Assembly (NCBI GenBank): GCA_903839845.1
Contig: CAIMEA010000014.1
Span: forward strand, 1 to 64,000
Direction of reading: 5' to 3'
DNA: 64,000 bases
Source of the DNA: an uncultured Hyphomicrobiales bacterium
Lineage (GTDB): Bacteria; Pseudomonadota; Alphaproteobacteria; Rhizobiales; Xanthobacteraceae
Below, one piece after another: positions 3,746 through 6,595 of this stretch (the first letter of the stretch is position 1; every line of letters begins with the position of its first letter). The notes beneath the pieces are model-generated. The model saw only the letters and a list, made by a program, of their open reading frames with translations, did no database searches and had not been told where the DNA came from. A program made the translations under genes and the position numbers.

Positions 3746-3794
3746 GCGCATGATCTTGTCCGAAAACCGGTATCCACTTTTCGGGATCATGCGC
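3746..3794. repeat. Palindromic repeat, arms GCGCATGATC / GATCATGCGC
   Basis: A nearly symmetric element with 10-base terminal arms and inner CCGAAAA/TTTTCGG arms. Elements with this sequence are widespread in Bradyrhizobium and Rhodopseudomonas-type genomes. It touches the stop codon of the thiosulfate channel gene and sits just before the ribosome site of the small Cys-rich gene. Confidence 0.85.
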
Positions 3795-4942
3795 TACTCC
3801 CTCGACAGGCCGAAGGCGGGACGCAAGCGAATGCCGATCAGGTTGCCGCATAAAGCCGCGCCGAACCAGACCCAGCCATGCAACGAGCCGGACGCGACGC
3901 CGCCAACGAAGGCGCCGATGTTGCAGCCGAAGCCGATGCGCGCACCCCAGCCGCACAGCAGACCGCCGATCGCGGCGGCGAGCAACGACTTCAACGGGGG
4001 CCAGTTCGCCGAGGCGAACGGCTTGGCCGCGGCGGCCGCCGCCATGGCGCCGAAGATCATGCCGAAGTCGGTCAGGCTCGACGTGTCGGACAGGACCGAC
4101 GAAGTGAGCGCCTGCTTGTTGCCCGGCCATTGCCAGAAGCCGGCATTGGAAAAATCGAAGCCGAGCGCGGCGAAAATTTTCGCGCCCCATATCGTGTAGC
4201 CGTAGGTCACACTCCACGGATGACCGCCGGCAAAGAACACGCCGATGCACAACGCGCCGATGACGATGCCGCCAACGATGTAGGCGCGCGATGGCTGCCA
4301 GTTGGCGCCGCGCTTTCGCGCCACCGCGATCATGACGCCAGCGGCGAGCGCGATGCTGAGAAGCGTCGCCGCGAGTCCGCCCCAGGGCCCGAGATAATCC
4401 GACGCCAGCACCGGATCGACGCCGCCAAGCGCGAAGGTCGATGGCAGCGACAGCGAGCCGAACACGCTGCCGACGATAAAGAAGGCGAGCGTGATCAGCA
4501 TGCGGCCGGAGCCGCCGCCGACGGTGTAAAGCGTGCCGGAGCCGCAGCCATTGGCGAGCTGCATGCCGATGCCGAAGACGAACGCGCCGATGATCAGCGA
4601 CGGACCGAGCGGCGCGATGGCGCCGCCGAAATTCTTGTTGAGCGCCGCGACCGGCACGACGGCCAACGCGCAGATGGCGATGACGATCAGACCGCCGATC
4701 AGGCCGCCGGCTTCGCCGCGCGTGAGGAAGCGCCGCCATGACGCGGTGTAGCTGAATTCCGCTTTGAGGAATGCGACGCCGAGACCGAAGCCGCCGAGGA
4801 TCAGTGCCGCCGAGGCCGGCTGGCCGTCAAGCAATACGAGGGCCACCAGGATCGCGGTGGCGATGAGCGCCGCGCCGAGGAACAGATAATCGATGCTGGG
4901 CGCGGCGCCGCTATCAGACGCCGACAAAGTCGCGGTGGACAT
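3794..4942 (-). CDS. YeeE/YedE (TsuA-type) thiosulfate/sulfur transporter
   Basis: Polytopic inner-membrane protein of 382 aa made of two related halves. Each half has the conserved Cys-Gly signature of the family: NGCGSGTLYTVGGGS with C133, and GARIGFGCNIGAF with the Cys near 340. In TsuA these cysteines pass thiosulfate through the membrane by transient S-H-S contacts. Hydrophobic helices run through the whole chain. It lies 37 bases downstream of a periplasmic rhodanese and upstream of a small Cys-rich protein, all on one strand, which supports a thiosulfate or sulfane-sulfur uptake operon. The exact ion is inferred from the family. Confidence 0.88.
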   Translation of the reverse strand: MSTATLSASDSGAAPSIDYLFLGAALIATAILVALVLLDGQPASAALILGGFGLGVAFLKAEFSYTASWRRFLTRGEAGGLIGGLIVIAICALAVVPVAALNKNFGGAIAPLGPSLIIGAFVFGIGMQLANGCGSGTLYTVGGGSGRMLITLAFFIVGSVFGSLSLPSTFALGGVDPVLASDYLGPWGGLAATLLSIALAAGVMIAVARKRGANWQPSRAYIVGGIVIGALCIGVFFAGGHPWSVTYGYTIWGAKIFAALGFDFSNAGFWQWPGNKQALTSSVLSDTSSLTDFGMIFGAMAAAAAAKPFASANWPPLKSLLAAAIGGLLCGWGARIGFGCNIGAFVGGVASGSLHGWVWFGAALCGNLIGIRLRPAFGLSRE

Positions 4943-4979: not shown

Positions 4980-5966
4980 TTACGACCCCAGACCGAGCTT
5001 CTTTTTCAAGTCATCCCACTTCGTGCGCGCCGATTCAACCGGGCGATTGGGGTTGGCGGTCCATTCGACCATCGAGCCGTCGTAAAGGCGGACATCCTCG
5101 CGGCCGAGCAGTTCGTGCAGCACGAACCAGTCGGTCGCCGCCCAGTGGCCGGTGTTGCAATAGCTCACCGCCGGACCGGCCGGCACATGCGCCGACAGCG
5201 CGGCGAGTTCGGCCTTCGGCTTCAGCCGGTTCGTCTTGTCGTCGTAGTAAGAGGCGCTGTCGAGACTGAGCGCGCCGGGAATATGGCCATAGGCGGCGGC
5301 ATTGGGCGCCTTTTCCTTGCCGAGGAAGAACGAGGCCGGCCGCGCGTCGATCAGGGTCGCGCCGCCTTTGCTTTCGATGGTCTCGACATCGGTGCCGCGC
5401 GCGATCAGACTCTTGTCGAGGGTCGCGGCAAAAATCGTCGCCGACGGCCGGGTTTCGCCCTGCTCGACCGGAAGGCCGGCCGCCTGCCAGGCGGCGACGC
5501 CGCCATCGAGGATCGAGACGTTCTTCAGGCCGACGACCTTGAGCGTCCAGTAGGTGCGCGCGGCGGAACCGAAATCGGTGTAGCTGTTGCCGGCCGGAAC
5601 GACGACGACATGCTTGTCTTCGTCGATGCCGATATCGCCGATCAGCTTTTCCAGTTCGGCCACGGTCGGCAGCATGAACGGCACGTCGTTGCGGGTGACG
5701 CGCCAGCCGGCCTTGTCATAGTCGCTGTGCACGCTTCCCGGGATATGCGCGGCGACATAGGCCGCCGCGCCGCCGCCGTCGATGGCGGAGCGGATATCGA
5801 GGACGACCACATTCTTGTCGCTGAGATGAGCCTTGAGCCAGTCGATGCTCACCAGCGGCTGCTCGGCCGGCGCGGCGGAGGCCGTGAAGGTCGCGCCCAG
5901 CGTCATGACGGCGGCGAGCGCCGCGGCGCGGGCCTGTCGGGTGAAAAAAGAGGCGAAAATTCTCAT
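4980..5966 (-). CDS. Periplasmic sulfurtransferase (tandem rhodanese, thiosulfate/3-mercaptopyruvate type)
   Basis: 328 aa with an N-terminal signal peptide (residues 1-32, ending TASAAPA) and two rhodanese domains. The N-terminal one (about 36-165) lacks a catalytic Cys. The C-terminal one carries the active-site loop YCNTGHWA with C270. Such enzymes move sulfane sulfur from thiosulfate or mercaptopyruvate to an acceptor; export places it next to the channel encoded just downstream. It is the first gene of a minus-strand operon whose promoter region is shared with the divergent Lrp/AsnC regulator. The CNTGHW loop is closer to exported tandem rhodaneses than to cytosolic SseA. Confidence 0.88.
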   Translation of the reverse strand: MRIFASFFTRQARAAALAAVMTLGATFTASAAPAEQPLVSIDWLKAHLSDKNVVVLDIRSAIDGGGAAAYVAAHIPGSVHSDYDKAGWRVTRNDVPFMLPTVAELEKLIGDIGIDEDKHVVVVPAGNSYTDFGSAARTYWTLKVVGLKNVSILDGGVAAWQAAGLPVEQGETRPSATIFAATLDKSLIARGTDVETIESKGGATLIDARPASFFLGKEKAPNAAAYGHIPGALSLDSASYYDDKTNRLKPKAELAALSAHVPAGPAVSYCNTGHWAATDWFVLHELLGREDVRLYDGSMVEWTANPNRPVESARTKWDDLKKKLGLGS

Positions 5967-6021
5967 GGTACCGGTCCAGTCAGCACAAGGCGCTCGATAG
6001 CGCGTCAGATTACTCTTGAAA

Positions 6022-6074
6022 TAGAATATTTTTCTCTATAAAGACAGATGTGCGCTCAAATAAGAATGTCCTTC
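6022..6074. promoter_or_regulatory. Two AGAAT-N4-TTCT dyads, candidate operator between regulator and sulfur operon
   Basis: AGAATATTTTTCT (6022-6034) and AGAATGTCCTTCT (6062-6074) are the same imperfect 13-base dyad, identical at 10 of 13 positions, with centres exactly 40 bases apart, close to four helical turns. The surrounding DNA is AT-rich against a GC-rich background. Lrp-family octamers bind phased AT-rich sites in such divergent spacers. The assignment to the adjacent regulator is inference. Confidence 0.45.
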
Positions 6075-6127
6075 TAAATCTGAGCGATTTTATAGATTGC
6101 GATGCTGAATATTGAGGGGATTGGAGA

Positions 6128-6595
6128 ATGGACGCCATCGACCGCAAGATCCTGGCTGTGGTTCAGCAGGACGCTTCGCTATCCGTCGCCGACATCGGTC
6201 AGAAAGTCGGCCTGTCCTCGACGCCGTGCTGGAAGCGGCTGCAGCGTCTGGAGGCCGACGGCGTCATCATGCGGCGCGTCGCGCTGATCGATCCGGAGAA
6301 AGTCGGCCTCGGCATCACCGTCTTCGTCTCGGTCGAGACCGGCGACCATTCGCAGGAATGGCTGGCGAAATTCGCCGAGGTCGTCAACGCGATGCCCGAG
6401 GTGATGGAATTCTACCGCATGGCCGGCGACGTCGATTACGTGCTGCGCGTGGTGGTGCACGACATGCAGAGCTACGACACCTTCTACAAGAAACTGATCG
6501 CCACCGTGCCGTTGAAGAACGTCACGTCGCGCTTTGCCATGGAGCGGATCAAATCGACCACCGCCCTGCCGATCGCCGAGCACAAGAGCGCGTAG
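6128..6595 (+). CDS. Lrp/AsnC family transcriptional regulator
   Basis: 155 aa with an N-terminal helix-turn-helix (MDAIDRKILAVVQQDASLS to about residue 50, recognition helix SSTPCWKRLQRLEADGVI) and a C-terminal RAM/ligand-sensing domain (about 65-150; GDVDYVLRVVVHDM is typical). These proteins form octamers and often control a neighbouring divergent operon, here the rhodanese and thiosulfate channel. The start ATG has a GGAG ribosome site. The ligand might be an amino acid or sulfur compound such as cysteine; this is only suggested by context. Confidence 0.9.
   Translation: MDAIDRKILAVVQQDASLSVADIGQKVGLSSTPCWKRLQRLEADGVIMRRVALIDPEKVGLGITVFVSVETGDHSQEWLAKFAEVVNAMPEVMEFYRMAGDVDYVLRVVVHDMQSYDTFYKKLIATVPLKNVTSRFAMERIKSTTALPIAEHKSA

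Follow-up and report, generated by a model that had tools for sequence, protein, structure and literature searches.

The CysB regulon of enteric bacteria includes cysJI, cysD(N), cysG and cysH, and CysB itself is a LysR-type protein. Escherichia coli Lrp uses operators that consist of multiple helically phased sites. Another E. coli regulator, CyuR (also DecR or YbaO), has been reported as cysteine-responsive and autorepressing; its reported targets are cyuPA, for cysteine uptake and breakdown, and cyuR-mdlAB, the motif published for it is an imperfect palindrome of 23 bp, and it activates the breakdown of cysteine, not assimilation (PMC11408624). For Agrobacterium, a study of LsrB mentions nothing nearer to CysB than a distant LysR protein (24.7% homology) and proposes LsrB and OxyR in its place (PMC11975290).

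We examined a 64,000-nt stretch from an uncultured Hyphomicrobiales bacterium (assembly GCA_903839845.1, contig CAIMEA010000014.1, positions 1–64,000 of the forward strand), referred to below as the window; its own genome is designated G000. The window harbours an Lrp/AsnC-family regulator gene (P0001, 155 aa; 6128–6595, plus strand), separated by a divergent spacer of 161 bp (5967–6127) from a gene encoding a two-domain rhodanese-like protein (P0002, 328 aa; 4980–5966, minus strand; PF00581, 101.6 bits in two stretches). The N-terminus of P0002 resembles a signal peptide by eye. Further leftward follows the gene for a YeeE/YedE-family membrane protein (P0003, 382 aa; 3794–4942, minus strand; PF04143, 153 bits), on whose far side are genes resembling PfkB/NUDIX by eye. 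P0001 possesses an AsnC-type HTH and a ligand-binding domain, both above the gathering thresholds (PF13404, 63.4 bits against 27; PF01037, 74.6 bits against 25), and its closest solved chain is 3i4p (208 bits). Likeness to DecR/CyuR is considerable, with 86 of 150 residues identical (57%) over nearly the whole protein. On the other hand, P0001 did not reach the cut-off of the NCBIfam Lrp equivalog NF008370 (101.4 bits against 233).

The rhodanese-YeeE pair had been labelled a thiosulfate-uptake operon in the first-pass annotation. P0003 shares the Sulf_transp family (PF04143) with the YeeE/TsuA transporters, but differs from them in scoring far below the NCBIfam TsuA cut-offs (45.4 against 400 and 21.9 against 645 bits) and in having a rhodanese as its neighbour. 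Against the TsuA structures 6leo and 8k1r it scored 31 bits. Thiosulfate uptake is thus a family-level guess for P0003. Elsewhere in the 19 genomes searched, the rhodanese gave two matches of 35–36%.

The spacer contains two 13-base dyads, site 1 (AGAATATTTTTCT, 6023–6035, plus strand) and site 2 (AGAATGTCCTTCT, 6063–6075, plus strand). Their sequences, their identity at 10 of 13 positions and the 40 bp between their centres proved exact as first reported when recomputed; the range given at that time, 6022–6074, was off. Five of the six dyad positions are paired within each 13-mer. Together with one flanking base on each side, site 1 agrees at 14 of 15 positions with the 15-bp consensus of E. 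coli Lrp. A single RGAA-N5-TTCY match is ordinary, as the 64-kb window contains four where a mean of 2.3 is expected, and 21 of 100 shuffles reach four. Two such dyads with at least 10/13 identity at any spacing occurred in 0.145% of 20,000 Markov-1 sequences modelled on the spacer, and in 0.015% of 20,000 at near-helical spacings from a list of our own choosing. Conservation is stronger evidence for the dyad pair than these Markov statistics.

We compared the spacer among relatives, as had been proposed along with the initial claim. The same-genus set is called Pseudolabrys here because many of the relatives' records are so named, besides MAGs filed under other names. Proteins matching P0001 at E≤1e-30 were present in 57 of 60 genomes. 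The window's genome and 34 of 35 genus relatives provided 35 loci (L002–L036), with G030 left out because a contig end truncates its regulator gene. A pair score was defined as the number of arm positions matched out of 16, with a threshold of at least 14. The dyads were kept in all 35 upstreams at this threshold (shuffles, 13/2,100), 31 of them with a spacing of 41 bp and four with 40 bp. Among the 31 of 35 upstreams kept at <85% identity, the mean top-base frequency was 0.955 for site 1 and 0.784 for site 2; the stretch separating them had 0.73, and the outer flanks had 0.59 and 0.52. As the named loci L052–L091 partly duplicate L002–L036 (the same contigs under names), further counts were made on unique upstreams. 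The 41-bp spacing was found in 78 of 104 of these and every other spacing in at most six; the 40 bp of the window is a minority variant. In one genome (L086), site 1 is preceded by another dyad, AGAACGCTATTCT, at a distance of 41 bp, and a longer phased array is possible there.

The pair is also present outside the genus. Among 40 more distant loci (L092–L131), many of them from Bradyrhizobium, 35 scored at least 14/16, 33 of these at 41 bp, and 6 of 14 orthologue loci from other families did so at 41–42 bp. The paralogue that the window's genome itself carries (L051) has an upstream scoring 10/16. In E. coli, the decR upstream (L162) carries AGAAAAAAATTCT (8/8 arms) 43 bp from AGAATAAATTGTC (6/8), possibly a version of the same architecture. 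A divergent rhodanese and a YeeE match were each found in 32 of the 35 genus loci. A P0002 match lay beside the regulator in only one of the 40 distant loci (L101), and in many of these the regulator follows a gene resembling PfkB or NUDIX by eye. It appears that the tandem site accompanies the regulator gene, and in most Pseudolabrys the rhodanese-YeeE pair occupies the place between pfkB and the regulator. Loci in which the tandem dyads remain without rhodanese-YeeE comprise the Bradyrhizobium type and L009, L066, L068, L081 and L087. Since dyads are present where no such pair adjoins, they would foremost be an operator of the regulator gene itself, situated in the promoter region of that gene. 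An operator exclusive to the rhodanese-YeeE pair was ruled out on the same loci. We also noticed, by eye, an additional inverted repeat, TGAGG...CC(T)CA, in Bradyrhizobium-type spacers of L092–L131, often about midway between the dyads; situated two turns from each, it may perhaps represent a third contact site.

The sequence around site 1 was then inspected for promoter elements. The alphaproteobacterial promoter consensus is CTTGAC-N17-CTATAT. A scan detected no standard sigma-70 promoter, and the following elements are therefore offered as conserved hexamers only. CTTGAA (6015–6020, plus strand) and CTATAA (6036–6041, plus strand) are a putative −35 and −10 of the regulator gene. The distance from TTGAAA to TATAAA is only 15 bp, an unusual spacer. 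Leaving out loci with a pair score below 14 and repeated upstreams, CTTG precedes site 1 in 40 of 41 rhodanese-linked upstreams, in 7/7 unlinked Pseudolabrys-like ones, in 22/26 unlinked ones from L092–L131 and in 0/6 from other families; TAT/TGTA follows site 1 in 38/41, 7/7, 23/26 and 0/6, respectively. We infer from this conservation that the two elements may make up the promoter of the regulator gene, and that this promoter would enclose site 1. In the same selection, AAAGACAG (at least 6/8) stands directly to the right of site 1 in 36 of 41 upstreams with a divergent rhodanese versus 3 of 39 without, a difference partly confounded with phylogeny. The element, with CTGTCT (6042–6047, minus strand), might, with low certainty, be a leftward −35 for rhodanese-YeeE. 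An accompanying −10, TATTTC (6018–6023, minus strand; 18 bp from the −35-like element), is a weak candidate read by eye in analogy with cysJ upstreams. The three carriers of AAAGACAG without rhodanese were L036, L084 (a named copy of the contig of L035) and L066. In L036 and L084 (G016 and the contig of G001), the place of rhodanese-YeeE beside the same operator is taken by a small leftward ORF; that of L036 encodes 95 aa and resembles a signal peptide by eye. At L066, no leftward ORF was recognisable beside the operator.

We searched for further copies of the tandem element. Searching 36 genomes with a pattern for the pair returned 30 matches, which fall at 19 places; the reversed control returned one match. 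Fourteen places belonged to the regulator, three lay before cysJ-like genes, one before YeiH-cysJ, and one elsewhere (G042), where no P0001 match is nearby. A profile (R1) was then built from 34 regulator spacers, with cysJ regions, the window, spacing-40 loci and L086, whose best-scoring pair lies farther upstream, kept out of the training set. R1 was run on 60 genomes with stricter filters, and matches of near-palindromic profiles on both strands were counted once per place. It recovered the regulator spacer of the window's genome and of all but one (G030) of the 35 genus genomes, that of G006 in part (E 0.002). At E≤0.02, the window's genome and the genus gave 14 non-regulator matches, and all 14 were at cysJ-like genes. 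The match in the window's genome (C79:4485–4540, E 2.2e-5) precedes cysJ and cysI, which are adjacent on one strand. CysI passed its equivalog cut-offs (826.3 against 756.55 and 837 against 457 bits), and CysJ scored 563 against a cut-off of 668.15. In the same region of contig C79 (L249:5853–8986), boxB and boxC of the benzoyl-CoA box pathway are found near the operator-cysJI locus.

In all 17 cysJ places matched at E≤0.3, cysJ is located on the side that rhodanese occupies in the window. A cysJ-like gene (E≤1e-100) is present in 16 genomes of the window and genus, 11 of which have an R1 match at cysJ, and none of the six genomes lacking such a gene has a non-regulator R1 match at E≤1. R1 gave no match at cysJ in the cysJ-bearing genomes G001, G004, G007, G009 and G016, nor at the cysJ-like gene beside cysD in G034, and some of the genomes missed show degenerate sites. 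Weaker matches in the genus (E 0.1–0.8) were at cysJ in G027, G011 and G029 and, on the second strand, in G010; others fell at different places, in G009 (C62, E 0.15, not at cysJ) and G029. In 24 genomes outside the genus, R1 found no match with E below 0.03. A gene stands between operator and cysJ in some genomes, YeiH-like in G021 and G035 and a transporter-like ORF in G003. A YeiH-like exporter gene was seen in this position in L253, L258 and, by eye, L256, as if sulfite or sulfate export belonged to the same unit as cysJ. A YeiH-like search in 36 genomes gave little beyond the order operator-YeiH-cysJ in G021 and G035.

Bradyrhizobium-type genomes carry the copy at another sulfur locus. 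A second profile (R2) was made from 21 of 26 eligible upstreams (alignment A2; L093, L094, L098, L111 and L118 are not of Bradyrhizobium type and were left out). Its top match was beside the regulator in all 16 genomes of this type, and secondary matches were at cysD in nine, with E≤0.021 in G063, G065, G067, G069 and G074 and E 0.7–0.8 in G061, G068, G070 and G072. Other matches at E≤1 were not at cysD, for example G068:C26 (0.07). Targeted inspection of the cysD upstreams revealed a pair of 14–16/16 in every one of the 16 genomes, always with a spacing of exactly 41 bp (shuffles, 9/1,800). The gene divergent from cysD across the pair is cysG in 15 genomes and cysH in one, and representative CysD, CysG, CysH and CysN each pass at least one NCBIfam cut-off. 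In the window's genome, no Bradyrhizobium-type CysD was found at E≤1e-60. Among 18 genus genomes searched, two (G004 and G034) have such a cysD, and the cysD upstreams of both are without the pair (13/16 and 11/16). In these two genomes (L319 and L318, respectively), cysD is divergent from a cysJ-like gene.

As a whole, the explanation we find best, and quite probable, is that the two dyads constitute a tandem operator of the adjacent DecR/CyuR-related regulator, and that this regulator controls sulfur assimilation. The proposal of a phased two-site operator tied to the Lrp/AsnC gene gains support at the sequence level from a pair conserved at fixed spacing. Sulfur control is strongly supported by the tandem element before cysJ-like genes of the genus and at cysD-cysG/cysH in 16/16 Bradyrhizobium-type genomes. 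Points that weigh against the explanation are the six genus genomes in which R1 missed the cysJ-like gene, the two genus cysD upstreams lacking the pair, the G009 match away from cysJ, the four R2 matches at cysD with E of 0.7–0.8, the lack of the promoter flanks in six other-family upstreams, and the differing consensus and function of CyuR. The first-pass annotation had placed an operator between the Lrp gene and a sulfur operon; the operator stands, but it would be at least equally that of the regulator's own promoter, and its typical spacing is 41 bp. A narrower reading confines the dyads to autoregulation of the Lrp gene, with rhodanese-YeeE an uncontrolled passenger between pfkB and the regulator. 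The pair could be a neighbour of the operator and yet escape its control, and the persistence of the tandem dyads in the Bradyrhizobium type and in the five other loci without the sulfur pair agrees with this. We regard the reading as unlikely, since it leaves the copies at cysJ and cysD unexplained, and the location of cysJ on the rhodanese side (17/17) and the distribution of AAAGACAG (36/41 versus 3/39) also speak against it.

It is decidedly improbable, in our judgement, that another sulfur regulator, for example LysR-type LsrB or CysB, binds the dyads and has the Lrp gene as merely one target. With the E. coli CysB as a query (E≤1e-20, eight genomes), relatives of 40–41% identity were found in G027 and G034, which would suit such a regulator, but no match was obtained in five genomes (G000, the window's own, G004, G060, G064 and G070), and G074 gave matches of 28% only. 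Moreover, only the Lrp-type gene is found next to the pair with any regularity. In favour of this reading, an effect of LsrB and OxyR on cys genes is reported from Agrobacterium (PMC11975290). That the conservation reflects core promoter elements and no operator is scarcely tenable. The CTTG and TAT flanks are indeed conserved in the genus and in most of L092–L131, but site 2 is outside the promoter-like hexamers, the pair recurs at 41 bp in 78/104 unique upstreams and at cysJ and cysD, and it persists without the flanks in six other-family upstreams. Chance resemblance has a negligible probability; single dyads are common, but the genus-wide conservation, the R1 matches at cysJ and the cysD pairs compared with shuffles are against it, and it was rejected on the Markov simulation (0.145%) and on conservation relative to shuffles.

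For the tandem operator of the DecR/CyuR-related protein, we propose the following mechanism. The regulator would most likely bind both sites from one helix face, four turns apart, with cooperativity of an octamer or of paired dimers; octamer formation and DNA wrapping would be compatible with the 41-bp phasing. It would act as a repressor at its own promoter, where site 1 lies between the −35-like and −10-like elements. The element in Pseudolabrys would govern leftward transcription of rhodanese-YeeE as well, and another copy in that genus would control cysJ(I); in the Bradyrhizobium type a copy would act between cysD and cysG or cysH. The ligand would probably be cysteine or a near metabolite. 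We infer repression answering to cysteine from the position of the sites and from end-product logic. With respect to E. coli Lrp, the system differs in that a pair with a fixed spacing of 41 bp occurs at few places in each genome, and in a protein far below the Lrp cut-off. It resembles the CysB regulon in its target set, but P0001 is of AsnC type and CysB was undetected in the window's genome at the threshold given above. Compared with DecR/CyuR, whose reported targets are cyuPA and cyuR-mdlAB, the operator here is at cysJ(I), at cysD with cysG or cysH, and at rhodanese-YeeE; the 23-bp CyuR consensus differs, in a comparison by eye, from two 13-bp dyads at 41 bp (PMC11408624).

Control of cysteine biosynthesis in alphaproteobacteria without an evident CysB looks unsettled. 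A search at the level of titles and abstracts, to which subscription literature was mostly external, found no published description of the present regulon, which may already be in print. The results offer another candidate regulator together with its operator and targets, a proposal that a single protein and three DNA fragments would suffice to test. We see an even chance that an AsnC/DecR-type protein, and not CysB, is the main regulator of sulfate/sulfite assimilation in Bradyrhizobium and many Pseudolabrys, and that it acts through a strict 41-bp two-dyad operator which would also switch the regulator itself and the rhodanese/YeeE importer pair bidirectionally. The candidate regulon would span genera that include the cultivated Bradyrhizobium.
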